A stretch of 64,000 bases of DNA from Methylobacterium tardum (GTDB lineage: Bacteria; Pseudomonadota; Alphaproteobacteria; Rhizobiales; Beijerinckiaceae): assembly GCF_023546765.1 (NCBI RefSeq), contig NZ_CP097484.1, positions 186,001-250,000 on the forward strand, in the 5' to 3' direction. The stretch's first letter is position 1. Every line of letters starts with the position of its first letter. This document shows positions 12,094 to 43,133 of this stretch, in pieces. The position numbers were made by a program, and so were the translations under genes. The notes under the pieces were generated by a model that was given only the letters and a program-made list of their open reading frames with translations, did not search any database and was not told where the DNA came from.

Positions 12094-13576
12094 TCAGCCG
12101 ATCGCCCGCGAAGCTTCCCGGACCTGACGCGTCGCCCGGTCGACGCGAACGCTCGCCTCGGCGATCGTGTCCATGCCGGACGCGATCGTGGAGACGCCGT
12201 GCGACGCCGTCTGCATGCTGCCGGACATCTCACGCGTTACCGCGGACTGCTCTTCCACTGCCGCCGCAATGGTCGGCGAGACCTCGTTCAGCGTGCGGAT
12301 CGTGCCCTGGATGACGCCGATCGCGTCCACGGCCTCGCGGGTCGCCGACTGGGTGGAGGCGATCTGGCTGCGGATCTGATCCGTCGCCCGGCCGGTCTGC
12401 TCAGCGAGGGTCTTCACCTCACTGGCCACGACCGCGAAACCGCGGCCGGCTTCACCGGCGCGGGCCGCCTCGATTGTGGCGTTGAGCGCGAGCAGGTTGG
12501 TCTGGGCGGCGATGCCGGAGATCAGGCCGACGACATCGCCGATCTGGGTCGCCTGCTCGCTCAGCCCCGCTACGATCCGTCCCGTGTGCTGCGCTTGATC
12601 GACCGCCTGTCCGGCGATCTCCGCCGCGTGGCTGACCTGCTGGCTGATCTCCCCGACGGACACGGACAACTGCTCGGCACCCGAGGTGACCGACCGGATC
12701 TCGTTCGAGACACGTCCGACCGTTTCGGCGGCGTGATTTGTCTGCCGCGTCACGTCCTCGACGGCGCGTCCGATCGCGTCGAGATCGTCGCCGATCGCGC
12801 GCTGCGCTTCGGCCCGGCGCTGCCGCTCGTGGACCTGCGCGGTGATGTCGGTGGCGAACTTGACGACCCGGACGGGGCGTCCGTCCGCGTCGGTGATCGG
12901 GTTGTAGGTAGCCTGGATCCAGATCTCGCGACCGCCTTTGCCGGTGCGCCTGAACGCGCCGGACTGGAACTCCCCGCGGGCGAGCGCGGCCCAGAACGCG
13001 CGATAGGCCTCGCCCGCTCGCTCGGCCTCGCCGACGAACAGGCTGTGGTGCCGGCCGACGATCTCTTCCAGGCGGTAGCCCACGGCATCGAGGAAGTTCT
13101 GATTGGCGCTCAGGATCGTTCCGTCGAGCGCGAAGGCGATCACCGCCTGCGAGCGGTGGAGCGCCGCGATCTGGCCTTCGAGATCGAGGGAGCGAAGCTT
13201 GTGCGCGGTAATGTCGGTGGCGAACTTGACGATCTTGACCGGCTTGCCCGAAGCATCGAGCACGGGATTGTAGGTGGCCTGGATCCAGACCTCACGGCCA
13301 CCCTTGGCGATCCGCTTGTACTCGGCGGTCTGGAACTCACCGCGCCGCAGACCCTCCCAGAATGCGCGGTAGGCCGCGCTCTCGCGCTGCGCCGGTTCGG
13401 AACAGGCTGTGATGACGGCCGCGAATCTCATCCAGGGTGTAGCCCATCGCGGCGAGGAAATTCGCGTTGGCGTCCAGGATGGTTCCGTCGAGCGCGAATT
13501 CGATTGTGGCGAGCGACCGGCTCAAGGCGGCCAGCTTGGCATACTGATCCCGGCGGCCCTTGAGGCGCTCGAACAT
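12094..13576 (-). pseudogene. Soluble PAS-PAS methyl-accepting chemotaxis protein, frameshifted as read
   Basis: From ATG 13576 (GGGAG six bases upstream) residues 1-59 start the first PAS domain and end at GRHHSLF; the frame then breaks and resumes two bases out of register with [17 protein letters not shown], near 13400. Restoring two bases gives 494 residues: PAS 1 (about 20-130), PAS 2 (about 145-250, an internal near-duplicate with [13 protein letters not shown] in both), then the signalling domain containing the conserved hairpin tip ([31 protein letters not shown]). No transmembrane helix, so a cytoplasmic receptor, likely sensing redox or a bound cofactor through PAS. PAS 2 has the matching length through the lesion, which favours a two-base loss over a one-base gain. 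Confidence 0.8.
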
Positions 13577-14103
13577 GATGTTCTCCCTGTGCGCAACCCG
13601 CTGGTGCGACGAAAGCGCGCCTTGACGGTTGCGGCGTAATTGCAAGCCGCTCGAAAAAAGCTATCTATGTTAGCGAGTTCGATATCAGCTTTACTGAAAC
13701 TCTTCTTCAGTTCGATCTACGGCGATTTTCTTTCCTAACTGTTAAAGCGGCTCTCGACTATCTTGATTTTAGTAATTCCGGCCGCACGTGCAGAAATCAA
13801 CGTGACCAATTCGTCACTCATCCAGCGATTGCATTATTTTATCTTAGGTTGGTCCCACCCACTACCTCGGGTTGGTGTCGGACGGACGCTCTTCGTGTGG
13901 GCTGACCAAACTAGTACCGCCCCCAATACCGGTCGCTACTTTGCAGTTTTTCATTCATGTTCCGCAGATTGAAATAGTAAGTTCGACAATCGATATTTTG
14001 GCCGCTTCTCCGATAGCACCCTGAAAACAGCAGACACGGTTTGAGCCGCTGAATGATTGTATGCCGATCAATTATTTGTGTGCTCGAAGTAACGCATCGG
14101 TGA
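13577..14103. other. AT-rich intergenic island
   Basis: Roughly 13640-14100 is markedly AT-rich and lies between the 5' end of the chemoreceptor gene and the 3' end of the uricase gene, both on the minus strand. A 69-codon plus-strand frame (13763-13972) has a poor start and no features. It must include the chemoreceptor promoter; otherwise nothing recognised. Possibly remnant acquired DNA. Confidence 0.5.
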
Positions 14104-14946
14104 TCAACCGCCGCGGCTGACTGTCGCCTCGATCCGCCCGTAGGGTTGGTCGGTCGGCAGGAAAACGGTCCCGGGATTGTCCAGGCTGAAGGCTGTCAGG
14201 TCGACGGGAATGTAGTGCTTGTTCGGCATCACGAAGGTGATCTCGCTGATGTCCTGCACGGCTGCGAGCGCGGCCTCGCCCATCCTGTACATACTATCCT
14301 GCACGCCGCGACTGTAAGTAGTACCGAAGACGGCCAGCAGCGTCGCGAGGATCCGCGCATTCGCGGTTTCGCACGCGGCGGGCACGGCCGCCCACGTCCA
14401 AGTCGCGTCCATGCTGGTGGCCGCGATGCGGTCCGTGGTGTCCGGCAACGTTCGGTACTGGTCGGCGACGAAGCCGGTCCAACCCGACTGCGTGGTCTTC
14501 ATGAAGGTATAGCCGCGCAGGCCGGAACGCAGGGTCGATCCGGCCCGGTCGGCCACGAGCGCGACGAAGCCGACGCCGTTCCCATCCCGCGTGAAGGTAT
14601 GGCCGTGCGGTTGACCGTCGATGCTGTGGCGCAGCCAGCGCGTTTCCTCGGCCTCAATCGCGACCATCTCGATTTGCGGGTAGGTGTCGAGCAGAACCCG
14701 CGCGACGGCGGCGACGAACGCCTCCTTGTCGAGGGCAAGATTCCGGGCCGCCGTGACGTTGACGATGTTCTTGATGCTGTCGGTGGCGATGCAGGCGCGG
14801 TTGTCGCCCTCGGTCCAGGCGGCATCGAAGCGGCCGGTCAGCATCACCGAGAGGGTCAGCTCGCGCGGCGTATGGTGGTCGCCGTCGCGGGTGAGACGCA
14901 TCACCCGGACCTGCTCCTTGCCGTAGCGCGACGCGATCAGGGGCAT
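14104..14946 (-). CDS. Urate oxidase (cofactor-independent uricase)
   Basis: Oxidises urate with O2 to 5-hydroxyisourate and H2O2, in the cytosol. 280 residues, close to family length. The catalytic Lys is in YGKEQVRV (Lys10) and the catalytic Thr in IATDSIKN (Thr55); NKHYIPVDL near the C terminus supplies the active-site His. Divergent from the molybdenum hydroxylase, purine permease and guanine deaminase genes, so the block forms a purine-degradation pathway. No hydroxyisourate hydrolase or OHCU decarboxylase gene is in the window. The divergent promoter region (14947-15116) has no clear operator that I can recognise. Confidence 0.92.
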   Translation of the reverse strand: MPLIASRYGKEQVRVMRLTRDGDHHTPRELTLSVMLTGRFDAAWTEGDNRACIATDSIKNIVNVTAARNLALDKEAFVAAVARVLLDTYPQIEMVAIEAEETRWLRHSIDGQPHGHTFTRDGNGVGFVALVADRAGSTLRSGLRGYTFMKTTQSGWTGFVADQYRTLPDTTDRIAATSMDATWTWAAVPAACETANARILATLLAVFGTTYSRGVQDSMYRMGEAALAAVQDISEITFVMPNKHYIPVDLTAFSLDNPGTVFLPTDQPYGRIEATVSRGG

Positions 14947-15116
14947 AGGGGGTCTCCGGGAAAGGCGATGGGCGCCGTCCAGCTTAGGGCGGGACCGTCC
15001 GCGGGTCCAAGATCCATGTGCCCGGGGGCAGGACTGGGATGACTTGACTGCGGCGGCGCACCGGCAGCCATATCGCGGGGCTGAAGCCCACCGGTCATCC
15101 GGCAGACGAGCGGGGA

Positions 15117-15950
15117 ATGGACCTCAACACGATTGAGACGGTTCTCCGGCCGCGCAGCCGGTCCGACTTGCCCGCGTGGCGGGCCGGCGATGCGTGCCTC
15201 GCGGGCGGGACATGGCTGTTCTCCGAGCCGCAGGTTGAAACGCGGCGCCTCGTCGACCTCGCGAGCCTCGCGTGGCCGCCGCACGCGATCGACACGGACG
15301 GTCTCGTTCTGGCCGCCACCTGCACCTTCGCGCAGCTCGACCGCCTGGACCTGCCGCAGGCCTGGATCGCGGCACCGCTTGTCGGGCAATGCTGCCGCGC
15401 CCTGCTCGGCTCGTTCAAGATCTGGAACACCGCCACTGTCGGCGGAAATCTCTGCCTCGCGCTGCCGGCAGGGCCGATGATCGCGCTCGCCACCGCGCTG
15501 GAGGCCACCTGCGCGATCTGGTCCGCGGATGGCGGCGCGCGGCACGTGCCCGTCGAGGACTTCATCCTCGGAGCCCAGCGCAATGCCCTGAAGCCGGGCG
15601 AGATCCTGCGCAGTCTGTCGATGCCGGCCGCCGCCCTGATGCGCAAGACCGCGTTCCGGCGGATCAGCCTCAGCCCGAACGGGCGGTCGGGGGCTCTTCT
15701 GATCGGGACACGGGATCCAGCCGGCGGCTTCGCGCTTACCGTCACCGCGTCCGTGCGGCGCCCGGTACGTCTCGTCTTTGCCGGCCTGCCCGAGCGCGCG
15801 GAGGTCGTGACCGCTCTAGAGCAGGCGATCCCCGACGCCCTCTACCATGACGACGTCCACGGACGGCCGGACTGGCGCCGCCACGTCACCCGGCACCTCG
15901 CCGGCGAGATCCGCGACGCGCTCGCGGAGGACACGGGCCGATGCGGCTGA
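15117..15950 (+). CDS. Molybdenum hydroxylase FAD-binding subunit (xanthine dehydrogenase type)
   Basis: 277 residues of the CO-dehydrogenase/xanthine-dehydrogenase flavoprotein fold. The FAD segments are [12 protein letters not shown] (about residues 24-35) and [18 protein letters not shown] (about 108-125), the second being the family signature. It transfers electrons from the Fe-S clusters to NAD or another acceptor. Its last 10 bases overlap the start of the next gene, which carries the Fe-S and Mo domains, so the two are translationally coupled and form one enzyme. Purine specificity is inferred from the neighbouring uricase, permease and guanine deaminase. Confidence 0.87.
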
Positions 15951-18685
15951 CCGTCAACGGCCTCGCCCAGGAGCGCGAGCCCCGCCCGGGGCAATGCCTG
16001 CGCACGTATCTCCGCGAGGCGGGCTGGTTCGGCGTGAAGAAGGGCTGCGACGCGGGCGATTGCGGCGCCTGCACCGTCCATCTCGATGGCGAGCCGGTCC
16101 ATAGCTGTCTGATCCCCGCCTACCGCGCCGAGGGGCGGAGCGTGACGACGATCGAGGGCCTCGCGGGTCCTTGCCGTCCGGAGGAGACCGAGCCGACATC
16201 GTTCCATCCGATGCAGGCGGCCTTCCTGGCAGCGCAGGGCTTCCAGTGCGGGTTCTGCACCCCGGGCATGATCATGACGGCTGCGGCCCTGAATCAGGGC
16301 CAGAGGCAGGATCTCGGCACCGCCCTCAAGGGCAATCTCTGCCGCTGCACCGGCTACCACGCCATTCGCGACGCCATTGCGGGAGCCGGGCACGCGGTGG
16401 CAGCGGGGTCCGACCTCCACCCGGTCGGCCAGAACGTGGCCGCGCCGGCCGCGCCGCTCGTGGTGTCCGGGCGGGCCCGCTTCACCCTCGACGGGCCGCC
16501 GACCGATGCGCTGCATCTGAAGGTCCTGCGCTCGCCGCACGCCCATGCCCGCGTCGTGGCGATCGGCGACGCGGCGGCGCGCGCCGTCCCGGGCGTGGTC
16601 GCGGTGCTGACCCATGCGGACGCGCCGCCGGGCCGGTTCTCCACCGGCCGCCACCAGGATCCGCGGGACGACGCAGCAGATACCCGCGTCCTCGACCCGA
16701 TCCTGCGCTTCGTCGGGCAGCGGGTCGCGGCCGTGGTCGCCGAGACCGAGGCCGCCGCGGAGGCCGGCTGCCGGGCCCTGCGCGTGACCTACGAGGTCCG
16801 CCCGGCGCTCCTCGACCCCGATCGCGCCCTGGCGGACGACGCGCCGTGGGTCCACGATCCGCGCGACCGGCCGGGTGAGGACGCCCGGCCGCACGGGCTT
16901 CACCCGAACCTCGCCGCGGAGGTGCACGGCGAGGTCGGCGATGTGGAGGCGGCCTTCGCTGCGGCCGATTTCGTCTACACGGACACATTCCATTCGCAGC
17001 GCGTCCAGCACGCAGCCCTCGAGACGCATGGCTGCCTCGGCTGGCGTGCCGAGGACGGGCGCCTGACGCTCCGCACGAGCACGCAGGTCCCGTTCCTGAC
17101 TCGCGACGCCCTCTGCGACCTGTTCGGCCTTGAGCGGGACGCGGTGCGTGTCCTGTGCGGCCGGGTCGGCGGCGGCTTCGGCGGCAAGCAGGAGATGCTG
17201 ACCGAGGATCTCGTCACCCTGGCGGTCCTGCGGACCGGCCGTCCGGTGCGCTGGGAGCTAACCCGCCAGGAGCAGTTCACCGCGACCACGACCCGCCACC
17301 CGATGCGCGTGGCCGTGAAAATCGGCGCTCGCCGGGACGGGACCCTGACGGCGATCAGCCTCGACGTCCTGTCCGACACGGGGGCCTACGGCAATCACGC
17401 GGGCGGCGTGATCCACCACGGCTGCAACGAGGTTCTGGCCGCCTACGCCTGCCCGAACAAGCGGGTCGACGGCTACGCGGTCTATACTCATACGCTGCCA
17501 TCCGGCGCCTTCCGGGGCTACGGCCTCAGCCAGACGATCTTCGCCCTCGAATCCGCGCTGGACGAGGTCGCCCGCGGCCTCGGGATCGATCCGTTCGCCC
17601 TGCGCCGGATCAATGCCGTGAAGCCCGGCGACGCCATGGTCTCGAACAGTCTGGAGCCGCACGACGTGGTGTTCGGCAGCTACGGCCTCGACCAGTGTCT
17701 GACCCTGGTCGAGGACGCCCTGCGGGCCGATCCCGGGCCGGAGCCGGAGCCCGGCTGGCTCAGCGGGACCGGCATGGCGATGGCGATGATCGACACGATC
17801 CCGCCCCGTGGCCATCACGCCGACGCGCGGGTCAGCCTCGACGCCGACGGGCACTACACCGTCCGGGTCGGCACGGCCGAATTCGGCAACGGCACCAGCA
17901 CGGTGCACCGGCAGATCGCGGCCTCGGCGCTGAACGTCGCCCCGGAGCGCGTGCGCGTCGCCGGCGCGGACACCGATGCGGTCGGCCACGATACAGGCGC
18001 GTACGGCAGCACCGGCACGGTGGTGGCGGGCCTCGCGACGCTCCGCGCCGCCGAGGCGCTCGCGACAGGGATCCGGGCGCGGGCCGCGGACATGTCGGGT
18101 ACGGCCCCGGAGACCTGCCGCCTCACCGGCGAGACCGTGGTGACGGCGAACGGATCGCTTCGGCTCGCGGCTCTCGGCCCGCTCGACGCGCCGGGCCGCG
18201 CGGACGGCACGCCGCGCTCGGTGTCGTTCAACGTTCAGGGCTTCCGGGTCGCCGTCCACCCGGTCAGCGGCGAAGTCCGGATCCTGAGGAGCGTCCACGC
18301 CGCCGATGCCGGCCGCGTCATCAATCCGATGCAGTGCCGCGGCCAGGTCGAGGGCGGTGTCGCGCAGGCGATCGGCGCGGCGCTCTACGAGGATGTCCGG
18401 ATCGACGCGACGGGGCAGGTCGTGACACAGGCGTTCCGCGACTACCACATCCCGGCCTGCGCCGACGTGCCGGACACCGAGGTGCTGTTCGCCGAAACCC
18501 ACGACAGCGTCGGCCCGCTCGGCGCCAAGTCGATGAGCGAATCGCCCTTCAATCCCGTCGCGGCGGCGCTCGGCAACGCCATCCGCGACGCGACCGGCAT
18601 CCGGCTCACCGCTACGCCCTTCGCGGCCGACAGGATCTACCGGGCCGTGGCGGCCGGACGAGGCGGGGGTCAGGAATGGACCTGA
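15941..18685 (+). CDS. Molybdenum hydroxylase with fused [2Fe-2S] and molybdopterin domains (probable xanthine dehydrogenase)
   Basis: 914 residues. A plant-type [2Fe-2S] domain (Cys36, 41, 44 and 56 in [16 protein letters not shown]...HSC), a helical [2Fe-2S] domain (QCGFCTPGM and [11 protein letters not shown], about 103-146), then the molybdenum subunit from about 165: [15 protein letters not shown] (substrate Arg) and [17 protein letters not shown] with the catalytic Glu. In bovine xanthine oxidase a second substrate Glu follows GGK; here it is Gln, so the purine contact differs. Typical bacterial XdhA carries Fe-S plus FAD; here Fe-S is fused to the Mo chain instead. Oxidation of (hypo)xanthine to urate is the likely role, feeding the uricase. 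Overlaps both neighbours by 10 bases. Confidence 0.85.
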
Positions 18686-20021
18686 AGCGCGACGTGGCTC
18701 CGCCGGCCCCGGGCGCTTCCGGATTTCTCGAGCGCACCTTCCGGCTCGCCGAGCACGGCACGAGCGTGCGCACCGAGCTGCTCGCCGGCCTGACCACCTT
18801 CCTGACGATGGTCTATATCGTCTTCATCAATCCGAGCATCCTGGCGGATGCCGGCATGCCCCGAGGCGCGGTCTTCGTGGCCACCTGCCGGTGGCGGCGC
18901 TCGGCTCGATGATCATGGCGCTCTACGCCAATTATCCGATCGCCCTCGCGCCGGGGATGGGACTCAACGCCTACTTCACCTACGTCGTGGTGCAGGGCCT
19001 GGGCTTCTCGTGGCAGGCGGCGCTGGGCGCGGTGTTCATCTCCGGCCTGTGCTTCCTGGTGGTCACGCTCACCGGCCTGCGGGCGCTCATCGTCGACGGG
19101 ATCCCGTCCTCGATGCGCATCGCCATCACGGTGGGCATCGGTCTGTTCCTGGCGATCATCGCGCTCAAGAACGCCGGCCTGGTCGCGGCGAGCCCGGCGA
19201 CCTTCGTTACCCTGGGCGACCTGCACAAGCCCGAGGCCATTCTGGCGGTCATCGGCTTCCTGATGGTCGCCGTACTGTCCGCCCGGAAGGTGCGGGCGGC
19301 GCTGCTCTCCAGCATCCTGACCGTGACGGTGCTGAGTTTCGTCTTCGCGGGCAACACCTTCCAGGGCATCGTCTCCCTGCCGCCCTCGCTCGCCCCGACG
19401 CTGTTCGCCCTGGACATCACGGGTGCCCTTTCGGCAGGGCTGCTCAATGTGATCCTGGTGCTGTTCCTCGTCGAGCTGTTCGACGCCACCGGCACGCTGA
19501 TGGGCGTGGCGGGCCGCGCCGGGCTGCTGACCGAGGGCCGGATGCGCCGTCTCGACCGGGCGCTGATGGCCGATTCCGCCGCGGTCTTCGCGGGCTCGCT
19601 CCTCGGGACATCGAGCACCACCGCCTACCTCGAGAGCGCCTCCGGGGTGGAGGAGGGCGGCCGCACCGGCCTGACCGCCGCGACGGTGGCGGTGCTGTTC
19701 CTGGCCTGCCTGTTCTTCGCCCCGCTGGCCGCCGCGGTCCCGCCCTACGCCACGGCGCCGGCCCTGTTCTACGTGGCCTGCCTGATGCTGCGCGAGCTGG
19801 TGGAGCTCGACTGGGACGATCTCACCGAGGTCGTGCCGGCCTGCGTGACGGCGCTGCTGATGCCCTTCACCTACTCGATCGCCACCGGCGTCTCGTGCGG
19901 CTTCATCACCTACGCGGCGCTCAAGCTCCTCGCCGGCCGCGCCCGGGACGTGAAGCCGATCGTCTGGGTGATCGCGGCCGTGTTCCTGTTCAAGTTCGTC
20001 GAGACCGGCGGGGCCCATTGA
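18676..20021 (+). CDS. NCS2/AzgA-type purine permease, frameshifted as read
   Basis: Proton-coupled uptake of guanine, hypoxanthine or xanthine. The N terminus (ATG 18676, overlapping the previous gene) reads [25 protein letters not shown]...GAVFVATC, then the frame is lost at 18888-18890 and continues one base out as [27 protein letters not shown]. Adding one base gives 448 residues, the normal length, with about 12-14 membrane helices and [13 protein letters not shown] and [20 protein letters not shown], both AzgA hallmarks. The family sequence requires C-L at the break, which restores a CCTGG. Ends in TGATG with guanine deaminase. More likely a sequence error than decay. Confidence 0.82.
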
Positions 20022-21390
20022 TGGCCGGCGCCGCCTCCGCCCAGCCGATGCGGTCCGCAGCCTTGCGGGGACGCGCCGCGAGCCTCACCGGAAACCCGTT
20101 CCTGGCCGAGGGCTGCCTGCATCACATCGAGGACGCGCTGATCCTGATCGAGGGCGGCCGGATCGCGGCGTTCGGCCCCTACGCGGACACGATCGGCCGC
20201 GTGCCCGAGGGCGTGCCGGTCACGGAATACGCGAACGCCCTGATCCTGCCGGGCCTGATCGACACGCACGTCCACTATCCGCAGCTTCAGATGATCGCGT
20301 CGTACGGCGAGCAGCTGCTGGCCTGCTCGACAAGTACACCTTCCCGGCCGAGCTGGAATTCGCCGATCAGGCCCATGCCGAGCGGGTCGCGAAGCTGTTC
20401 TTCCGCGAGATCCTGGGCGCCGGCACAACCACGGCGGCGGTCTACTGCACGGTCCATCCCGGCTCGGTGGAGGCGTTCTTCGCCGAATCCGAGCGCTTCA
20501 ACACCCGGATGGTCGCCGGCAAGGTGCTGATGGACCGCAACGCCCCCGCGGCCCTGCTCGACACGGCCCAGCGCGGCTACGACGAGAGCCGGGCCCTGAT
20601 CGCGCGCTGGCACGGGCGGGGCCGCCAGCTCTACGCCGTGACGCCGCGCTTCGCCCCCTCCTGCACGCAGGCGCAGCTCGACGCCGCCGGCGCACTGCTC
20701 GCCGAGCATGATGGTCTCTTCCTGCAGACCCACCTGTACGAGACCACCGACGAGGTCGCCTGGGTGATGGACCTGTTCCCGGATCGGGCGAGCTACCTCG
20801 ACGTCTACGCCCGCGCGGGACTGGTCGGGCCGCGCTCGGTCTTCGGCCACGCGATCCATGTCGGCGAGGACGATCTCTGCACCTGTCACCAGGCGGGGGC
20901 GGCGCTCGCCCATTGCCCGACCTCGAACGGCTTTCTCGGCAGCGGCCTGTTCCGCCTGTTCGACGCGCAGGATCCGCGGCGGCCGGTGCGGGTCGGCCTC
21001 GGCACGGATGTCGGGGCCGGCACGACCCTGTCGCTGCTGAAGACGCTGGGCGACGCCTACAAGGTCGCCGCCCTGCAGGGGACCAAGCTCGACGCGCTGC
21101 GGGCCTTCTGGCTCGCCACCCTGGGCGGGGCGGAAGCCCTGCGCCTCGACGACCGGATCGGCCGTATCGCCCCGGGCTACGAGGCCGATCTCTGCGTCCT
21201 CGACCTCGCCGCGACCCCGCTCCTCGGCTTCCGCACCGGGACCTGCCGGGACATCGAGGAGCTGCTCTTCGTCCTGATGATCCTCGGCGACCACCGCACC
21301 GTGCGGGCGACCTGGGTGGCCGGCGAATGCGTCTACGACAACCGGCGCACCGGCGATCCGCTGCGCTACCCGCCGGTCACCGCCGCGTAG
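20021..21390 (+). CDS. Guanine deaminase, frameshifted as read
   Basis: Zn-dependent amidohydrolase converting guanine to xanthine. From ATG 20021 (inside the stop of the permease) the N-terminal part carries the metal motif LPGLIDTHVHYPQ and ends in GEQLLA; at 20324-20325 one base is missing from GCCTGGCTC and the frame shifts, resuming as LDKYTFPAELEFADQ. The rest is intact: LQTHLYETTDEVAW, FGHAIHVGEDD, AHCPTSNGFLGSG and GLGTDVGAGTTLSLLKT. Corrected length 456 residues. The required W-L at the break recreates CCTGG. Last gene of the purine operon; its 3' end overlaps the convergent PtsN-like gene by 25 bases. Confidence 0.85.
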
Positions 21391-21812: not shown

Positions 21813-21857
21813 CGCGCGGGGCTGCCGGTGCTCAGAAGCTTCATCCGATCCTCGGGG

Positions 21858-28600: not shown

Positions 28601-28601
28601 C

Positions 28602-30429: not shown

Positions 30430-30440
30430 GGCGGCCTCGC

Positions 30441-30636: not shown

Positions 30637-30644
30637 CTTATAAG
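30637..30644. promoter_or_regulatory. CTTATAAG palindrome upstream of the kdp operon
   Basis: An 8-base perfect palindrome inside a small AT-rich patch in otherwise very GC-rich sequence, about 110 bases before the first kdp peptide. It could be a -10 element or part of a KdpE site; known KdpE boxes in E. coli are T-rich direct repeats, so the match is weak. Confidence 0.25.
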
Positions 30645-30777
30645 GGTGGCATTAGGATTGGGCCGTGCCGACCGTCCCTACCGGCCGCGCGAAGCACGTC
30701 GTCGGCGCACGTGATGTCGGCGCGGGCCTCGGTGAACGGCCCTCCGGCAGAAACCTGATTGACGCGCCCGGTCGTTC

Positions 30778-32327: not shown

Positions 32328-35300
32328 TTACGAGCAGCCGGTGGTGCTCCCGCAGGTGTCGCACTTCAGGCAGGTGCCGTTCCGGACCAGCGTGAAGTTC
32401 GCGCATTCCGGGCAGGCCTCGCCGACGTAGCCCTTCATCTTCGCCTCGGCACGGCGGTCGGCGACCGTCCGTTCCGCCTTGGCGAAGGGGAGGGAGTCGG
32501 CGATCGTCTCGGCCTGTCCGGCCAAAGCCGGCTCGGCCTTCAGCGCCGTGCTGCCGCGGATCGCGTGGACCGTGCCGCCGGCCGGGGCCGACTGGCCGGC
32601 GCTCGCCGCACCGACACCCAGGTTGCCGCCGGCCGGGCCGCCCTGGATCAGGGTGAGCCGATCGGCCGAGCCGCGGAGCAGGCCGCGGGAGACGACCGAG
32701 GAGGCCGGCGCCGGCTTCGGACCCTCACGGGTCGTGTCGCCGCTCTCGCCGCCGCCGATCACCGTGCCGCCGATCTCGGCGGGGCTGACATGGGCGAGGT
32801 CGGCGCGGCCGAGATACGAGACCGCCAGCTCGCGGAACACGTAGTCGAGGAGCGAGGTCGCGTTCTTGATCGCGTCGTTGCCCTGGACGAAGCCGGCCGG
32901 CTCGAACCGCGTGAAGGTGAAGGCCTCCACGTATTCCTCCAGCGGCACGCCGTACTGGAGGCCGAGCGAGATCGCGATGGCGAAGTTGTTCATCAAGCTC
33001 CGGAAGGTCGCGCCTTCCTTGTGCATGTCGATGAAGATCTCGCCGAGGCGGCCGTCGTCGTACTCGCCGGTGCGCAGGTAGACCTTGTGGCCACCGACGA
33101 CCGCCTTCTGGGTGTAGCCCTTCCGGCGGGCCGGCAGCTTCTCGCGGGAGCGGATCCGCTCGACGCGCTCGATCACCCGCTCGACAATCTTCTCCGCGGC
33201 CGCGGCGGCCTTGGCGGCGGCCGGTGCCTGGATCAGGGCCTCGATCCCCTCATCCGCCTCGTCGTCCTCATCGGAGATCAGGGCGGCGTTGAGCGGCTGC
33301 GACAGCTTGGAGCCGTCGCGGTAGAGGGCGTTCGCCTTGAGGGCGAGGCGCCACGACAGCAGGTAGGCCGCCTTGCAATCCTCGACCGTGGCGTCGTTCG
33401 GCATGTTGATGGTCTTGGAGATCGCCCCCGAGATGAAGGGCTGCGCCGCCGCCATCATGCGGATGTGGCTCTCGACCGAGAGGTAGCGCTTGCCGATCCG
33501 GCCGCACGGGTTGGCGCAGTCGAAGACCGGGTAGTGCTCGACCTTGAGGAAGGGCGCGCCCTCCAGGGTCATCGCCCCGCAGATATGGGTGTTGGCGGCC
33601 TCGATCTCCTTCTTGGAGAAGCCGAGGAACGGCAGCAGCTCGAAGGTCGGGTCCGCGAGCTTCTCGGCCGGGACCTTCAGGGTCTGGGTCAGGAAGTCGT
33701 CGCCGAGCGTCCAGCGGTTGAACACGAACTTGATGTCGAAGGCCGACTTGAGGCCCTTCTCCACCGCGGCGATCTTCTCGTCGGTGAAACCCTTGGCGCG
33801 CAGCGTCGTCGGGTTGATGCCCGGCGCCTGGCCCATCGAGCCGTGGCCGACCGCGTAGGCCTCGATCTCGGCGATCTCGGATTCACGGTAGCCGAGCGCC
33901 CGCAGGGCGTCCGGAGCGGCTTGGTTGATGATCTTGAAGTAACCGCCGCCGGCGAGCTTCTTGAACTTCACCAGGGCGAAGTCGGGCTCGATGCCGGTGG
34001 TGTCGCAGTCCATCACGAGGCCGATCGTGCCGGTGGGCGCGATCACGGTGGCCTGCGCGTTGCGGTAGCCGTGCTCCTCGCCGAGCTTCAGCGCCCGGTC
34101 CCAGGCGGCGCGGGCATGGTCGCCCAGATCCGCCTGCGGGATGTTGGCGTGGTCGAGGGCGACCGGCGCCACGTTCAGGAACTCGTAGCCCTCGGTTTCG
34201 CCATGCGCGGCCCGGCGATGGTTGCGGATGACCCGCAGCATCGCGTCGGCATTCTCCTCGTAGGCCGGGAAGGTGCCGAGCTCTGCGGCCATCTCGGCCG
34301 AGGTGGCGTAGGCGACGCCTGTCATGATCGCGGTGAGCGCGCCGGCCAGCGCCCGGCCCGCGTCGGAATCGTAGGGCAGGCCCATGGTCATCAGCAGGCC
34401 GCCGATATTGGCGTAGCCGAGACCGAGCGTCCGGTACCGGTAGGACAGCTCCGCGATCTCCTTCGACGGGAACTGCGCCATCATCACCGAGATCTCGAGC
34501 ACCACCGTCCAGAGGCGGTTGAGGTGCTCGAACGCCTCCACGTCGAAGCGCTTGGTCTCCCGGTCGTACATCGTCAGCAGGTTCGCCGAGGCGAGATTGC
34601 AGGCGGTGTCGTCGAGGAACATGTACTCGGAGCACGGGTTCGAGGCCCGGATCCGCCCGCCCGCCGGGCAGGTGTGCCAGTCGTTCATCGTGGTGTTGAA
34701 GTGCAGGCCCGGATCCGCCGAGGCCCAGGCGGCCTCGCCGATCCGCTCCCAGAGGTCGCGGGCCTTCAGGGTCTTGGTGACCTTGCCGGTGGTGCGGGCC
34801 TGGAGGGACCAGTCGGCATCCGCCTCGACGGCGCGCAGGAAGTCGTCGGTCAGCGAGACCGAGTTGTTGGAGTTCTGGCCGGCCACCGTGAGGTAGGCCT
34901 CCGAATCCCAGTCGGTGTCGTAGACGGGGAAATCGATCTTGGTGAAGCCCTGGCGGGCGAACTGCACGACGCGCTTGATGTAGGCGTCCGGCACCGAGGC
35001 GCGGCGGGCGGCCTTGATCTCGCGCTTGAGCGCCGGGTTGCGCTCGGGATCGAAGCAGGCGTCGCCTTCGGCCTCGCACTGGGTGCAGGCCTTCATCACC
35101 AAGTTCAGGTGCTTGGAGACGACCTTGGAGCCGGTCACCAGGGCGGCGACCTTCTGCTCCTCCTTCACCTTCCAGTCGATGAACGACTCGATATCCGGAT
35201 GGTCGATATCGACGATCACCATCTTGGCGGCGCGGCGCGTGGTGCCGCCCGACTTGATCGCGCCGGCCGCCCGGTCGCCGATCTTGAGGAAGCTCATCAG

Positions 35301-36058
35301 GCCGGACGACTTGCCGCCGCCGCCGAGCTTCTCGTTCTCGCCGCGCAGCATCGAGAAGTTGGAGCCGGTGCCCGAGCCGTACTTGAACAGGCGCGCCTCA
35401 CGCACCCACAGGTCCATGATGCCGCCCTCGTTCACGAGGTCGTCCTGAACCGACTGGATGAAGCAGGCATGCGGCTGCGGGTGCTCGTAGGCCGAGGCCG
35501 ACTTGGTCAGCACGCCGGTCTGCGGGTCGCAGTAATAGTGGCCCTGGCTCGGGCCATCGATGCCGTAGGCCCAGTGCAGGCCGGTGTTGAACCATTGCGG
35601 CGAGTTGGGCGCCACCATCTGGCGGGCGAACATGAAGCGCAGCTCGTCCATGAACGCCGAGGCGTCGTCCTCCGACGAGAAGTAGCCGCCTTTCCAGCCC
35701 CAGTAGGTCCAGCAGCCGGCGAGCCGGTCGAAGACCTGCGTGGCCGAGGATTCGGAGACGAAGCGCTCGTCCTCCGGCAGCTCGGCCAACGCCGCCTCAT
35801 CCGGCACGGAGCGCCAGAGGAAGGACGGGACCGCGTTCTCCTCGATCTTGCGCAGCCGCGCCGGGACGCCCGCCTTGCGGAAGTACTTCTGCGCGAGCAC
35901 GTCGCTCGCCACCTGCTCCAGCTCTCCGGCACGTCGATGCCGTCGAGGCGGAAGACCACCGACCCGTCGGGGTTGCGGATCTCGCTCAGCGCCTTGCGGA
36001 ACGGGATGCCGGCGTAGGGCGACTGGCCGGCCGTGGTGTAGCGACGCTCGAACCGCAT
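32328..36058 (-). CDS. nrdJ: B12-dependent class II ribonucleotide reductase NrdJ, frameshifted as read
   Basis: Reduces ribonucleotides to deoxyribonucleotides with adenosylcobalamin, oxygen-independent. Start ATG 36058 (GGGAGAGGTG upstream) gives [20 protein letters not shown]...IDVPESWS, then one base is lost near 35915; the rest resumes as [18 protein letters not shown] and is intact. Corrected length 1,243, as expected. Visible: [50 protein letters not shown] (catalytic Cys region), [33 protein letters not shown], and a C-terminal Cys cluster CPEC...[13 protein letters not shown]. The family requires S-Q at the break, recreating CCAGG. A true knockout would be hard to survive unless another RNR exists, so a sequence error is likely. 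Confidence 0.88.
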
Positions 36059-36573
36059 GAAACACACCTCTCCCGACGAGACACGACGGTCCCGTACCCG
36101 CGCGAAGCGGGGTCTGTGCCCAATATTGGGATTCGCGCCCGAACACGCCCGGCAGGGGGTCGTGGCTCGGTCTCACGAACGAAATCTAGGAACGGTCGCC
36201 CCTGACCAACGCACCACAATCCAGGGGTGCGACCGATGCAGGGAGATTACCGCCGCCTTTGCTCTCACGTCAACAAGTGGTGTTCGGCACGCTTGTTCCC
36301 CGCTAGATGTTGTGCCGGCTCGCAAAAGCCTGTGGATATCGTCCGCGGCGCGGATAAGTGTCCTTCCGGCTTTCGGGAATCGGATCGGGAAAATTTTAGA
36401 TTCACAGGGGCCGGCGAGCGTTTTTTCGGGAACCTTGTAGCGATCCGTCGATGCGCCCTGAAGGCGTTGCCGGGGAGCGACACTTCCGTCAGCCCGCTGG
36501 ACTCGCGCGCGCGCGGTCACCATAACGGCGCCGAGAAGCGCCTCCGCGGCGCGGCACGATTTCGGGATCGGCG
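36059..36573. other. Divergent promoter region of nrdJ and the NDUFA12-like gene
   Basis: 515 bases without a supported gene. It carries the nrdJ promoter on the minus strand and the promoter of the plus-strand gene. A perfect palindrome lies near nrdJ, and a DnaA-box-like CTGTGGATA occurs near 36331. Overlapping frames on both strands lack starts and features. Confidence 0.5.
36119..36130. promoter_or_regulatory. CCCAATATTGGG palindrome upstream of nrdJ
   Basis: A 12-base perfect palindrome about 60 bases before the nrdJ start. Its AATATT centre recalls NrdR boxes, which are 16-base AT-centred palindromes found in pairs before nrd genes, but the flanks differ and I see only one copy. Candidate operator only. 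Confidence 0.35.
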
Positions 36574-36990
36574 ATGGCGCTGAAGGACACTTTGCTGCGC
36601 GTCTTCACGTGGTGGAACGGCCAGACCGTCTCCCTCGCGCTCCAGACCGCGCGCACCGGCATCTTCGTCGGCGAAGACGAGTTCGGGAACAAGTACTACA
36701 AGGCCGAGGGCGCCCTCATCGACCGCTCGGTCGGCTCCGAGCGGCGCTGGGTGGTCTATAATGGCTACGCCGACGCGTCGAAGGTGCCTCCGGGCTGGCG
36801 CGGCTGGCTCTGCCACAACGTCGATCTCGCCCCGAGCGAGGAGAACTACCAGCCGAAGGCGTGGCAGAAGCCGCACATCGAGAATCAGACCGGCACGCCG
36901 AACGCGTACCGGCCGGCGGGTTCGCAGCTGTCCTGGGGGCAGCGGCCGGCGGCTACCGGCGACTACGTCTCCTGGACGCCGGGCGAGTAG
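36574..36990 (+). CDS. NDUFA12/B17.2-like NADH:ubiquinone oxidoreductase accessory subunit
   Basis: 138 residues. Motifs GIFVGEDEFGNKYYK, ERRWVVYNGYADASKVPPGW, LCHNVDLAPS and the C-terminal KPHIENQTGTPNAYRPAGS are diagnostic of the NDUFA12 family, a supernumerary complex I subunit shared by mitochondria and alphaproteobacteria. It binds the peripheral arm and is not catalytic. The DUF2155 gene follows on the same strand after 126 bases, the usual alphaproteobacterial neighbourhood with aat, accC and accB. Confidence 0.92.
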   Translation: MALKDTLLRVFTWWNGQTVSLALQTARTGIFVGEDEFGNKYYKAEGALIDRSVGSERRWVVYNGYADASKVPPGWRGWLCHNVDLAPSEENYQPKAWQKPHIENQTGTPNAYRPAGSQLSWGQRPAATGDYVSWTPGE

Positions 36991-37116
36991 AGGGCGCGAC
37001 ACCGGCCTCCGGCGCCCTTTTGCCGCCACCGTTCCGGTGTTCATGGCGGGCCAATCCCGATCGTCCGCCGCGCAACTGAAGGCGCGGCCGGCCACCCTCG
37101 TCTAGGGGTCCGAGCC

Positions 37117-37776
37117 TTGAGCCGCATCACCGCCCTCGCACGCCGCGCGCTCATGTCGAGCCTCGCGCTCGCCCTCTGCGCGGGCCCTGCCGCCGCCGAC
37201 AAGATCAAGAACCCGACCGCGGTGTTCTCCGGCCTCGACAAGATCACCGGCCGGATCGTCTCCTTCGAGGTGGCGGTGGACGAGACGGTGCAGTTCGGCG
37301 CCCTGCAGCTGACCCCGCGGGTCTGCTACACCCGCCCACCGACCGAGAGCGCCAAGACCACGGCGTTCCTGGAGGTCGGCGAGGTGACCCTGGACAACAA
37401 GTATCGCCGGATCTTCACCGGATGGATGTTCGCGTCGAGCCCGGGCCTGCACGCGATCGAGCACCCGATCTACGACGTGTGGCTGGTCGATTGTAAGGGC
37501 GGCAGCGACGTGATCGCCGAGGCCAAGGAGCAGGAGGACGTTCCTGCCATGGCGGCAAAGCCCGAGAAGACCAAGCGCCCGAGCAAGGACGCCACCAAGA
37601 CCGCGCAGCAGCTCAACGCCGCCGGCCAGGTGGATGTGGAGGCGCCACGCGGCGTGCCGGTCCAGCCCCGCCAGAAGCCCTCGCGCAAATTCTTCCCGTC
37701 GAACGAGGGCCCCGCGGCAGCTCCGCCGCCTCCGCCGCAGCAGCCGCAGAACCTGTTCGACGCGCTGTTCCGCTGA
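37117..37776 (+). CDS. DUF2155-domain secreted protein
   Basis: 219 residues from TTG 37117 (AGGGG eight bases upstream); ATG 37153 would shorten the signal peptide, so TTG is preferred. Signal peptide cleaved near AAADKIK. The DUF2155 core is about residues 30-125: LDKITGRIVSFEVAVDETVQFGALQ, CYTRPPTE and TGWMFASSPGLHAIEHPIYDVWLVDC. The last 90 residues are Lys/Pro-rich and probably disordered (PPPPPQQPQNLFDALFR). Found in alphaproteobacteria beside NDUFA12 and aat; biochemical role unknown, probably periplasmic. Confidence 0.85.
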   Translation: MSRITALARRALMSSLALALCAGPAAADKIKNPTAVFSGLDKITGRIVSFEVAVDETVQFGALQLTPRVCYTRPPTESAKTTAFLEVGEVTLDNKYRRIFTGWMFASSPGLHAIEHPIYDVWLVDCKGGSDVIAEAKEQEDVPAMAAKPEKTKRPSKDATKTAQQLNAAGQVDVEAPRGVPVQPRQKPSRKFFPSNEGPAAAPPPPPQQPQNLFDALFR

Positions 37777-37828
37777 GGCGCGATCAGACCGCGTCCGGTT
37801 GAAGGGGGCGGGCGGCTTCAGCCGCTCC

Positions 37829-37919
37829 GTCATCACGAGCGCAGCGAAGTGTCCGAGGGCAGCGCGCCGGCGACCAGCGTGGTGCTGCCTGGATTGCTTC
37901 GCTCTGCCTGCAAAGACGG
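37829..37919. repeat. Dispersed palindrome, family A copy 3
   Basis: Left arm CGTCATCACGAGCGCAGCGAAG, right arm GGATTGCTTCGCTCTGCCTG followed by CAAAGAC. Sits between the convergent DUF2155 and aat genes, where it may also serve as a two-way transcript end. Sequence closest to copy 1 in the right arm. Confidence 0.75.
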
Positions 37920-37985
37920 CGGAGCCGACGCCATCGACTCAAATCGGCAGCTCACTGTCCCGCCTTTGGCGCGTGCGTTCGAAGG

Positions 37986-38654
37986 CTAGGTGCCGCCCAG
38001 CGCGTCGAGCACCTGTCCGCCCGTCACCGAACCGTCTCCGGGCCAGACGTTCCAGTCGCCAGCCTGGTCGAGGGCCTCGGCCAGCCGCCGCTTGTAGACG
38101 TGGCGCGGGAGTTCCTCGGCGCCGAACTGCGTGAGGTGCTCGGTGACGAACTGGGTGTCGGCAAGCCGGTAATGCCCGGCGCGCAGGCGTCCCATCAGGT
38201 GGACGAGGGCGACCTTTGAGGCGTCGCGCACCTCGTGGAACATGCTCTCGCCGAAGAAGGCCGCGCCCAGCGATACGCCGTACAGGCCGCCGACCAGGCG
38301 CCCTCCGGCATAGACCTCCACGGTGTGGACATAGCCGAGATCGTAGAGGGCGCCGTAGAGTTCGCGGATGCGCCCGTTGATCCAGGTGCGCTCGCTGTCC
38401 CGGCGGGGCGCGGCGCAGCCGTCGATGACACCCGCGAAGTCGGTGTCGCACCGAACCTCGAACTGGTCCAACCGGACGGTCCGGGCGAGGCGCCGCGAGA
38501 CCCGGAAACCGTCGAGGGGCAGGACGCCGCGCGCCTTCGGCTCGACCCAGTAGAGGGTCGGATCCTGGGCATCCTCGGCCATCGGGAAGATGCCCGCCGC
38601 GTAGGCCTTCAGCAGGATCTCGGGGGTGATGTCCACGCGGGTGGGATCATGCAT
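37986..38654 (-). CDS. aat: Leucyl/phenylalanyl-tRNA-protein transferase
   Basis: 222 residues. Transfers Leu or Phe from tRNA to proteins with N-terminal Arg or Lys, marking them for ClpS/ClpAP. Typical: [71 protein letters not shown] and [21 protein letters not shown]. 66 bases downstream of accC on the same strand. Confidence 0.93.
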
Positions 38655-38720
38655 GGCGTCAGTGTCGCGCGCGGCCGGCCCGAAGGCCAGAGCCCGCGGC
38701 CGCCGCAGGCTCCCGCGGCC

Positions 38721-40073
38721 TCAGACCTTCATGCCCCCATCTTCCAGGAAATGCTCTAGCCAGTGGATGTCGTAAAGGCCGTTCTGCACGTCCGGGTTGC
38801 GGACAAGGGTCCTGAACAGGGGCAGCGTCGTGTCGATGCCGTCGATGACAAACTCGTCCAACGCGCGGCGCAGGCGCATTAGGCACTCGTTGCGGGTGCG
38901 GCCGTGCACGATCAGCTTGCCAATCAGCGAGTCGTAGTTCGGCGGGATCCGGTAGCCCTGGAACGCCGCGGAATCGACGCGGACGCCGAGGCCGCCCGGC
39001 GTGTGATAGTGGGTGATCTCGCCGGGCGAGGGACGGAAGGTCTCCGGGTGCTCGGCGTTGATCCGACACTCGATGGCGTGGCCCTCGACCTTGATGTCCG
39101 CCTGGCTCACCGAGAGCGGGCCGCCCGAGGCGACCTGGATCTGCTCGATGACGAGGTCGATCCCGGTGATCATCTCGGTCACCGGATGCTCGACCTGGAT
39201 CCGGGTGTTCATCTCGATGAAGTAAAACCGCCCGTCCTCGTACAGGAACTCGACGGTGCCGGCGCCCAGGTAGCCGAGCTCCTTCATGGCGTTGGCGCAG
39301 ATGCCGCCGATCTCGGCGCGCATCGACTCATTGAGCGCCGGCGAGCCGCCTTCCTCCCAGACCTTCTGGTGACGGCGCTGGAGCGAGCAGTCGCGCTCGG
39401 CAAGGTGGACCGCACCGCCGCGGCCGTCCCCGAGCACCTGCACCTCGATATGACGGGGCTTCTCGAGGTACTTCTCGAGATAGACCGCGTCGTCGCCGAA
39501 CGCGGCCTTGGCCTCGGATTTGGCCATGCCGATCGCCTGCTCCAACTCGGCCTCGGAGCGCGCGACCTTCATGCCGCGTCCGCCGCCGCCCGCAGCCGCC
39601 TTCACCAGGACCGGGTAACCGATCTCGGCGGCCACGCGCTTGGCGGTATCGGCATCCTCGACGCCGCCTTCGGATCCCGGCACGCACGGGATGCCGAGCT
39701 TGAGTGCCGTGCGCTTGGCCTCGATCTTGTCGCCCATTGTGCGGATGTGCTGGGCCTTGGGGCCGATAAAGCCGATCTGATGATGGGCCAGCACCTCGGC
39801 GAAGCGGGCGTTCTCCGACAGGAAGCCGTAGCCAGGATGAACCGCGTCCGCGCCGGTGATCTCGCAGGCCGCGATGATCGACGGGATGTTGAGGTAGCTG
39901 TCGCGGGCGGCCGGCGGCCCGATGCAGACGCTCTCATCGGCCAGACGCACATGCATGGCGTCGGCATCGGCGGTGGAGTGGACCGCCACGGTGGCGATCC
40001 CGAGCTCCTTCGCCGCCCGCAGGATGCGCAGGGCGATCTCGCCGCGGTTCGCGATCAGGATCTTGTCGAACAT
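38721..40073 (-). CDS. accC: Acetyl-CoA carboxylase biotin carboxylase subunit
   Basis: 450 residues, ATP-grasp fold. Carboxylates biotin on AccB using ATP and bicarbonate, the first step of fatty-acid synthesis. N-terminal [22 protein letters not shown] loop [24 protein letters not shown] and the catalytic [14 protein letters not shown] are present. Follows accB by about 105 bases on the minus strand and precedes aat. Confidence 0.95.
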
Positions 40074-40178
40074 CGGACCCGTTAGGGCGTCCTGGCGATC
40101 CCGGACCGCACAGGATGCTCTATCCTCTTGTTAAGCGGCGTCTTCCAGGACTGAGCGATGATCGGCCCAGCGGACGTC

Positions 40179-40655
40179 CTAGCTGATGACGAGCAAGGCC
40201 TCGCCGAACTCGACCGGCTGGCCGTCCTCGGCGAAGATGGCGCTGACCGTGCCGGCGCGGGGCGCCACGATCTCATTGAAGGTCTTCATCGCCTCGATGA
40301 GCAGCAGCTTGTCGCCGGCCTCGACCTTTGAGCCCACATCGGCGAACGCCTTGGCGTCGGGCGAGGGGCGCAGATAGGCGGTCCCGACCATCGGCGACGG
40401 CACGGTGCCGGGCTGGGACCGCGCCGGCTCGGCTGGGGCGAGGGCGGACGGCGCCGCCGACACAGCGGCAGGAGGGGGTGCCATGGCCGCGACCGGCGCG
40501 GGCGCCGCGACCTGGACGCTCACGGGTTCGAGCCGGCGCGCCACGCGGATGCGCAGATCGCCCTTCTCGACCTCGATCTCGGACAGACCGGTCTCGGTGA
40601 CGAGGTTGGCGAGCTCGCGCACGAGCTCGGGATCGATAGCGTCGTTCTTTGGCAT
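40179..40655 (-). CDS. accB: Acetyl-CoA carboxylase biotin carboxyl carrier protein
   Basis: 158 residues. N-terminal helical part ([21 protein letters not shown]), a flexible Ala/Pro linker (about 48-85), and a biotinyl domain with [15 protein letters not shown] and the biotinylated Lys124 in [10 protein letters not shown]. Carries carboxybiotin from AccC to AccAD. First gene before accC on the same strand. Confidence 0.94.
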
Positions 40656-40806
40656 CCGGCCTACTTCGTCTCGCGGCGCGTCAGTCCGTCCAACCGAGTC
40701 GGCGCTGGACCGCGGCCCTGCGGCTGGCGGCTCTTAGACGAAGGCGCCCCGCCGCGACAAGGCTGCACGCGACGCCTTCTCGGGTCCAGCGGCCCGGATC
40801 GTCAGC

Positions 40807-41589
40807 TCAGCAGGAAGCGTGGCCGCACTGGCGCACGTCGGCGATGGTCTTGCGCATCGGCTCGACGCCGACGGCTCCCGGGATCACCTCGTCACCGATG
40901 ATGAAGGCCGGCGTGCCGGACAGGCCCAGACGGTCGCCGAGCCCCCGGTTCTCGCTCAGCGCGGTCTTCACCTCGGGGGAGGCCATGTCCTTCTGGAGCT
41001 TGGTCGTGTCCACGCCGAGATCCTTGGCGACCTGGATCGCCCGGGCGCCATTCACCCGGCCCTTGGTCTCCAGGAGCTTCTGGTGGAACTCGAACAGCTT
41101 GTCGCCCTTGAGCTGCTGGCGGACCGCGATCGCCACCTGGCTGGCCTCAAGCGATTCCTGGCCGAGCACCGGGAAGTCCTTGATCACCACCCGCAGCTTC
41201 GGGTCGGACTTGATCAGCGCCTGAACGTCCCCGAGCGCCTTGCGGCAGTAGCCGCAATTGTAATCGAAGAACTCGACCATGGTGACGTCGCCCGAGGGAT
41301 TGCCGGCGACCACGTCGTGGGGGCCGTTGAGGAGCGCGTCGCGCGACTCCTTGAGGGCGGCGGCCTGGGCGAGGCGCTGCGTCTCGGCCTGCTGCTTCTC
41401 GGCCTCGGCGAGGGCCTCCTGAAGCACCTCGGGGTGCTTGATCAGGTATTCCTTGACGATCGCCTCGATGCCGGCGCGCTGCGCATCCGTGAAGGGCGCG
41501 GCGGGCGGCGCCGCATTCTGGGCGAGTGCCGGGACGGCGACGAGGCCGAGCGCCAGGGCCAGCGCGGGCAGGGGGCGGATGAAGGGCAT
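40807..41589 (-). CDS. DsbA/Com1-like periplasmic thiol:disulfide oxidoreductase
   Basis: 260 residues from ATG 41589 (GAGGA upstream; seven earlier codons rejected). Signal peptide cleaved near ALAQNAAPP; a helical N-terminal segment (AQRAGIEAIVKEYLIKHPEVLQEAL) typical of the Com1/ScsC-like group; thioredoxin domain with active-site CGYC (Cys112, Cys115) in FFDYNCGYCRKAL and cis-Pro in SGTPAFIIGDEVIPG. The tail ends RQCGHASC, adding two cysteines not in the core fold. Forms or isomerises disulfides in periplasmic proteins. The first gene leftward of a family B palindrome. Confidence 0.9.
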   Translation of the reverse strand: MPFIRPLPALALALGLVAVPALAQNAAPPAAPFTDAQRAGIEAIVKEYLIKHPEVLQEALAEAEKQQAETQRLAQAAALKESRDALLNGPHDVVAGNPSGDVTMVEFFDYNCGYCRKALGDVQALIKSDPKLRVVIKDFPVLGQESLEASQVAIAVRQQLKGDKLFEFHQKLLETKGRVNGARAIQVAKDLGVDTTKLQKDMASPEVKTALSENRGLGDRLGLSGTPAFIIGDEVIPGAVGVEPMRKTIADVRQCGHASC

Positions 41590-41979
41590 GGATCCTCGCT
41601 TGCGCGGCAAGCCGGCCCGCGCGTGGCGCGAGCGGTAGGGGCTGGGTTAGGCGTTTTCGCGGCGCTCGGTCAATTCCAGCCAGTGCCGCGGTCTGCGGCG
41701 CGCCGGTTTGCGAGGCCGGATGAGCCGGTGCGGATTTTGCCCACAGACACATCCGTCATCCCGGGGCCGCGGAGCGGAGCCCGGGATCCAGAGCCGCCGA
41801 CGCGTCAAGGGCTGGCACAGCCTGCGCGTCTGGATTCCGGGCTCGCCTGCGGCGCCCCGGAAAGACGGTCCTGACCCAGGAGGGTTTCTGCCGGCATCGG
41901 GCCTGGCCTCGGCTTGAGGTAGGGACCGCGAGGGTCTAACCCCGAGACCCCGGCTTCGCCCGGCGCAGAGCAGAGCCCC
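41590..41979. other. Divergent intergenic region with family B palindrome
   Basis: Separates the minus-strand dsbA-like gene and the plus-strand aminotransferase gene, so it holds both promoters. Most of its middle is the family B repeat at 41754-41867. No gene recognised. Confidence 0.55.
41754..41867. repeat. Dispersed palindrome, family B copy 2
   Basis: Outer arms CGTCATCCCGGGGCCGC and GCGCCCCGGAAAGACG; inner arms GGGATCCAGAGCCGCC and GTCTGGATTCCGGGCTC. Same length and plan as the other four copies; lies between divergent genes. Confidence 0.85.
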
Positions 41980-43133
41980 ATGACCCCGATTTCCCGGCGG
42001 GCCGCCGCCGTCCAGCCGTTCCTCGCCATGGACGTCATGGCCGCCGCGGCCGCCAAGGCGCGGGCGGGCGACGACGTGGTGCGGATGGAGGTCGGACAGC
42101 CCTCGGCGCCGGCGCCGCGCGCGGTGATTGCGGCCGCGCAGGCGGCTCTCGCCACCGGCCGCGTCCCCTACACGGAAGCCCTCGGCCTTCCCGCCCTGCG
42201 TGAGCGGATCGCCCGCGACTACGCCGAGCGGCACGGTGTCCCGGTCAGCCCGGAGCGGGTGGTGATCACCACCGGCTCATCGGCGGGCTTCGTGCTGGCC
42301 TTCATGAGCCTGTTCGATGCTGGCGCCCGCGTGGCGGTCCCGCAGCCGGGCTACCCGGCCTACCGGAGCATCCTGGCGTCCCTCGATCTCGTGCCCGCCC
42401 CGATGGTCCTGCGCGCGGAGGACCGCTTCGCACCGACCGCCGCGCTGCTGCGCGAAACGCACGCACGGGAGCCGGTGGCCGGCGCCCTGGTGATGAGCCC
42501 GGCGAACCCTTCGGGCACCGTGATCACCGAGACCGCCTTGCGCGATCTCTGCACGGCCGCGCACGCGCTGGGCCTGCCCCTGATCTCCGACGAGATCTAT
42601 CACGGCCTCAGCTACGGCGTCCCCACGGTGACGGCCCTGCGCTTCGACCCCGACGCCGTGGTGATCAACTCGTTCTCGAAGTACCATTGCATGACCGGCT
42701 GGCGGGTCGGCTGGATGATCGTGCCGGAAGCGCTGGTCCGCCCAATCGAGCGGCTGGCGCAGAATCTCTACATCTCGGCCCCCTACCTGTCGCAGATCGG
42801 CGCCCTGGCAGCCTTCGACGCGACGGACGAACTCGATGCGGTTGGCGACGGCTACGCACGCAACCGCGCGATCCTGCTGGACGCTCTGCCCGGCCTGGGC
42901 CTCGGCCGCGTGCACCCGGCCGACGGCGCTTTCTACCTCTACGCCGACGTCTCGGACCTCACCAACGACGCGCCGACCTTCTGCCGGCGGATGCTGGACG
43001 AGGCCCTCGTCGCAGCAACTCCGGGTCTCGATTTCGACCCGGAGCTGGGCCACCACCACGTCCGGTTCTCGTTCGCCGGCTCGGAAGCCGAATGCCGCGA
43101 GGCGGTGGCGCGACTCCGGACCGGCTGCGCTGA
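41980..43133 (+). CDS. Class I/II PLP aminotransferase, C terminus frameshifted as read
   Basis: Fold-type I aminotransferase, about 384 residues after correction. Motifs: VRMEVGQPSAPAP, ALGLPALRERIARDYAERHG, VITTGSSAGFVLAF, MSPANPSGTVI, LISDEIYHGLSYG and the PLP Lys in NSFSKYHCMTGWRVGW. The frame as read runs on to 43869 across the antisense of gph, giving a meaningless 240-residue tail. Restoring one base near 43120 (ARLRT-W-L-R) ends the gene at 43133, four bases from the gph stop, and recreates CCTGG. Amino-acid substrate unknown; closest by motif to aspartate/aromatic-type enzymes. Confidence 0.85.

Follow-up and report, generated by a model that had tools for sequence, protein, structure and literature searches.

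Frame breaks and central-base changes in a Methylobacterium tardum assembly as probable consensus errors at two seven-base motifs

Motif-bound consensus errors caused by DNA modification are on record (PMC6591954; PMC10687267; PMC11610573). About 70% of the consensus errors in a Klebsiella pneumoniae nanopore assembly lay within Dcm motifs (PMC6591954), five Listeria isolates each carried between 1,533 and 5,670 mismatches at GCAGC or GCTGG owing to unlearned modifications (PMC10687267), and A/G and C/T ambiguity in many species shared the minimal motif RA/TY (PMC11610573). In 'Pseudomonas maltophilia', RCCWGGY was mapped as a 5-methylcytosine (m5C) motif from FspEI fragments (5,805 of 10,467 sites; PMC8112702). 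Here we analyze a 64,000-nucleotide window of Methylobacterium tardum (C1:186001-250000, G+C 69%) in which five genes are interrupted by frame breaks; the genome (6.94 Mb in two contigs, 99.9% complete) serves as a public reference. With a probability of about 0.85, these breaks are not mutations but errors in the consensus of a long-read assembly, arising from two base modifications at two 7-base motifs, RCCWGGY and TCGACGA (TCGWCGA).

The mechanism we propose is that a long-read base-caller, probably nanopore, was untrained on two DNA modifications that would disturb the signal at these motifs: at RCCWGGY, m5C (probably from a single C5-methyltransferase) would cause one base, at times two, to be dropped, and at TCGACGA the central A or T would often be read as G or C, with a base at times inserted or two lost.

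As a reference we used the best one found, the single-contig genome of a congener (G010, ~92% identity), to which 734 kb (~11% of the genome) could be aligned. A base loss entered the counts if it was an isolated gap of 1-2 bases, if at least 24 of the 30 bases to either side matched, and if the nearest other gap was more than 90 columns away. Gaps of three, longer gaps and those in crowded stretches were excluded, and the crowding rule removed the aminotransferase site itself from these counts. Coding effects were judged in 585 reference open reading frames (ORFs), called by length and GC3.

The five interrupted genes

The original prediction described five frame breaks in the window, each made by lost bases: one base in the purine permease, guanine deaminase, nrdJ and aminotransferase genes, and two in the chemoreceptor gene. 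Comparison with relatives confirmed both the breaks and their sizes, and the breaks are present in the letters of the genome itself. The accompanying reading of the sites as broken CCWGG, which for the chemoreceptor allowed another repair, holds for the four single-base losses, which the narrower RCCWGGY fits, and fails for the chemoreceptor.

13397..13401, minus strand: chemoreceptor frame break; 2 bases lost; TCGACGA in 4 of 6 relatives (best alignment), CCWGG in none of the 6
18887..18892, plus strand: purine permease frame break; 1 base lost within RCC/GGY; RCCWGGY in 2 of 7 relatives, the other 5 without it
20321..20326, plus strand: amidohydrolase (guanine deaminase) frame break; 1 base lost from RCCWGGY; site whole in 4 of 4 relatives
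35911..35916, minus strand: nrdJ frame break; 1 base lost from RCCWGGY; site whole in 9 of 12 relatives, CTTGG in the other 3
43120..43125, plus strand: aminotransferase frame break; 1 base lost within RCC/GGC; RCCWGGY in 2 of 7 relatives, a TGG codon in 7 of 7
32331..36185, minus strand: main frame of nrdJ, a class II B12-dependent ribonucleotide reductase; no second PF02867 locus found in this genome

Because TCGACGA is found at the chemoreceptor break in relatives, we ruled this break out as a CCWGG site and assigned it to the second motif. The fit of the permease and aminotransferase breaks rests on their own flanks (RCC/GGY), since so few relatives carry RCCWGGY at either site. The genes belong to recognizable families (MCPsignal/PAS, Xan_ur_permease, Amidohydro_1 and Aminotran_1_2 for the chemoreceptor, permease, deaminase and aminotransferase), and the family match begins late in the profile for three main frames, those of the permease, the amidohydrolase and nrdJ, as expected from a lost start. 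The PF02867 matches of nrdJ are the only ones in the genome (other reductase classes, such as NrdD, were not searched). The five breaks are an incomplete list: the window also holds 18 central-base changes at TCGWCGA and further indel differences, including losses in G/C runs.

RCCWGGY and the lost bases

After filtering, 106 isolated losses remained in this genome and 56 in the reference. CCWGG overlaps 17 of the 106, where 2.6 are expected (p = 2e-9), as against 2 of the 56 (difference between sides, p = 0.02). The predicted enrichment at CCWGG is thus real, with a motif narrower than proposed: this genome has lost 16 of 426 RCCWGGY sites, whereas all other CCWGG sites show a single loss among 2,456, which falls in a C run. 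Ranking the losses by 5-mers placed CCCCC first and CCWGG second; by 7-mers, GCCWGGC led with 12 losses against 0.27 expected (p = 2e-16). Following these flank and 7-mer scans, RCCWGGY replaced CCWGG as the motif. Loss varied with the flanks, from 12 of 221 at GCCWGGC to 4 of 158 at ACCWGGC/GCCWGGT and 0 of 47 at ACCWGGT; the last count makes a definition restricted to GCCWGGC and the mixed sites a possible alternative. On the reference side the same filter found 0 of 392 RCCWGGY sites lost. Among one-base losses, RCCWGGY-compatible flanks occur in 14 of 82 here (10 of the form RCC/GGY) and in 4 of 49 in the reference (none of that form).

Methylation in this genome finds its strongest support in the convergence of a blind scan on an m5C motif already in print: the motif from 'Pseudomonas maltophilia' is identical to our loss motif, although methylation was measured there and is predicted here (PMC8112702). 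The Dcm case likewise has errors clustered in an m5C motif with homopolymers second (PMC6591954); here, by contrast, the motif-bound losses are limited to RCCWGGY, form a minority of all losses, and come from a platform that is presumed.

The original prediction attributed the losses to Dcm-like methylation of every CCWGG, which would require a base-caller that fails mainly in RCC..GGY flanks. In its favor, every motif loss falls at CCWGG, Dcm methylation is the best-known source of such errors (PMC6591954), and dcm and vsr adjoin in E. coli as a C5-methyltransferase and a Vsr gene do here (Vsr 38% identical). We nevertheless consider this account unlikely: errors of the Dcm type should ignore the flanks, and the errors instead follow RCCWGGY; RCCWGGY is a motif in its own right (PMC8112702); BLASTP aligns the enzyme to Dcm in the catalytic motifs and weak pieces only; and TCGACGA is left unexplained. 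E. coli K-12 J53, chosen as a control for Dcm flank bias (99.9% identity), equals MG1655 over 40.7 kb plus an insertion and is uninformative on that point.

A further alternative is that the base-caller errs by context with no modification involved, for example at symmetric G/C-rich words. Losses in runs of at least 4 are also higher here (23, against 12 in the reference). The freedom of the reference from these errors is a weak control, its sequencing platform not being on record. Against this, the control word GCCSGGC is spared (1 of 958), RCCWGGY is a known m5C motif (PMC8112702), and two exact, centre-symmetric 7-base motifs resemble enzyme recognition sequences; with one-base variants of TCGACGA almost silent (below), we regard context errors as improbable. 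The reading of motif-bound losses as such stands in part: the bias is real, and it accounts for less than half of what this genome has lost (13 of 56 losses in ORFs).

Several observations on this motif were set aside. Avoidance of GCCWGGC was dropped as a signal of this genome, the word being scarcer than expected in this genome and the reference alike (0.61 and 0.69 for the two), and a literature search for GCCWGGC as a motif found none. Substitutions at the RCCWGGY centre, weakly one-sided, were not used as evidence. At window positions 7647, 25140 and 61797, GCCWGGC in the reference reads GCCCGGC here; because such changes are weakly one-sided over the 734 kb, error and true change are indistinguishable at these three sites.

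TCGACGA and the changed central bases

The second motif, TCGACGA, was not seen by the original prediction. In a scan of 1,464 7-mer contexts in both directions it was, its mirror row apart, the only strong outlier (next p = 8e-5): among 411 flank-matched sites the central A appears as G in 152, as against 2 of 259 in reverse (p = 1e-42). The 523 TCGWCGA sites of the reference include 81 that read A to G here, 71 T to C, six with a one-base insertion and one with a two-base loss, which is the chemoreceptor break; in the reverse direction the centre is changed likewise at 2 of 330. The specificity is sharp: the most affected one-base variant of TCGACGA stands at 13 of 492 versus 5 of 524, bases outside the motif, up to nine positions away, have no effect at p below 0.1, and the remaining CGACG contexts, obtained by subtraction, change at ~4% in either direction, centre changes in TCGACGA being nine times as frequent as in neighbouring contexts. 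The share of A or T at TCGNCGA is 270 of 727 (0.371) in the loci of other congeners (these overlap, so that some sites count twice) and 523 of 1,403 in the reference, as compared to 330 of 1,482 in this genome. An enrichment of CGTCCGA on the reference side was considered as reference error and rejected; since the reference frame is open in 5 of 6 cases, we read it as extra bases inserted at TCGTCGA in this genome.

5449..62558, no strand assigned: 18 sites (of 47 aligned in the window) with TCGWCGA in the reference and TCGSCGA here
Motif starts of the 18: 5449, 12273, 16563, 23562, 23685, 24951, 30803, 37376, 40228, 40339, 44829, 48111, 48546, 54090, 56155, 56425, 62478, 62552

Relatives could be compared at 8 of these 18 sites, and at 7 of the 8 every relative has A or T, including 19 of 19 at window position 37379 and 9 of 9 at 44832; at 12276, C occurs in 1 of 4.

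The coding consequences speak to whether these are real differences. Within reference ORFs, 116 of 116 centre changes at TCGWCGA are nonsynonymous, as are 361 of the 365 possible ones; therefore no purifying selection is visible. Ordinary A-to-G and T-to-C differences are 80% synonymous (4,211 versus 1,080). The changes are one-sided, bound to motifs and blind to coding effect, as modification-mediated consensus errors are. With the more numerous run losses, the pattern resembles a long-read consensus without full polishing, which would suggest such a platform.

True mutation, whether by decay of the genes or by a mutator peculiar to this lineage and active at the motifs, would account for lesions that are, after all, present in the deposited sequence, and modified bases can act as mutational hot spots. 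However, such an origin would have to have changed 37% of TCGACGA sites with every change in an ORF nonsynonymous, and to have struck conserved genes, including the only PF02867 reductase and a ccrM-like gene; we find this scarcely credible. Gene decay in particular would show no motif bias and fall on dispensable genes, and the data show a motif bias and an interrupted nrdJ. The five frame breaks are thus almost certainly sequencing errors rather than gene decay, as had been proposed.

The Modpolish cases resemble this one in that numerous lineage-specific mismatches gather at a single short motif whose enzyme is unclear; they differ in motif, and TCGACGA came from one-sided differences to a relative, without reads (PMC10687267). 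A literature search for TCGACGA as a DNA-modification motif brought up none apparent among the matches listed; its matches were unspecific, and absence from print is not established.

Candidate enzymes and consequences

A PF00145 search of the genome found one C5-methyltransferase (C1:2178399-2179774), which is split between two frames; a Vsr gene lies upstream of it and, on the opposite strand, a NOV_C protein is encoded downstream. The predicted methyltransferase thus has a candidate, a C5-methyltransferase with a Vsr partner; the general CCWGG specificity ascribed to it does not match the losses. BLASTP against E. coli Dcm aligned the catalytic motifs and weak pieces, with nothing else similar. 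The closer likeness is to a plasmid enzyme of Azospirillum ramasamyi (NZ_CP029836.1), with which both frames are collinear (65% identity over 397 aligned residues, variable region included, and 58% over 102), and which has similar neighbour types, a DUF3883 protein and Vsr nearby. The Azospirillum gene is annotated as a single frame, whereas the copy here is split at a G/C run; as the frames are collinear and the change is located at GGGGGTCCCCC, the split is probably another read error. No match to the enzyme was found in the reference, and of 12 congeners tested three had partial, weak matches only. This single C5-methyltransferase is probably the writer of RCCWGGY. The Vsr, C5-methyltransferase and NOV_C (DUF3883-like) genes cluster near C1 2.178 Mb (L001:745-3891), similar to the neighbours on the Azospirillum plasmid, and perhaps form a restriction-modification island.

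Candidate writers of TCGACGA comprise five N6/N4 methyltransferase loci, one of them ccrM-like, together with a pair of very long N6-methylase ORFs near C1 1480897 (1,045 aa) and 1420321 (1,409 aa) (L277, L278). Further candidate adenine/N4 methyltransferase genes lie near C1 1155602, 3123103 and 6401663. The long ORFs are possible, putative writers; the one near 1480897 matches type IIG restriction-methyltransferases. Outside the window, the ccrM-like adenine methyltransferase (N6_N4_Mtase and RAMA; C1 near 577815-578485, L272:905-2242) lies in two frames split at or beside a C6 run, and reads TCGSCGA at a position that is TCGTCGA in 6 of 6 relatives.

Several points weigh against modification-driven consensus error. 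Both genomes were analyzed as assembled sequence, with neither raw reads nor a platform record behind either. Most losses in ORFs belong to none of the classes, 33 of 56 in this genome and 11 of 19 in the reference. Only 3.8% of RCCWGGY sites are affected, with none of the ACCWGGT sites among them, and unfiltered, the reference shows one one-base loss among its 392. One-base losses with a CC/GG junction took A/T in 11 cases and C/G in 9 (p = 0.06), a preference that is weak because run shrinkage contributes C/G. TCGACGA does not fit the shared A/G ambiguity motif RA/TY (PMC11610573). Finally, the proposed writer of RCCWGGY has a split frame and a specificity that is predicted only. As a separate observation, a third error class may hide among the 33 ORF losses outside both motifs and runs of at least 4.

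Taking the 734 kb as typical of the genome, extrapolation gives 1,437 false substitutions and 151 false deletions at the two motifs. In aligned ORFs the false substitutions are amino-acid changes without exception, and an annotation would list false pseudogenes and false missense changes to which completeness scores are blind. The same bias yields two candidate modification motifs without raw data. On balance, we lean toward TCGACGA (TCGWCGA) being subject to an as yet unrecorded DNA modification, with RCCWGGY methylation as a second one in the same genome, and toward public long-read-only assemblies being an archive of modification motifs that may be mined by sequence, through 7-mers that differ one-way from a close relative.

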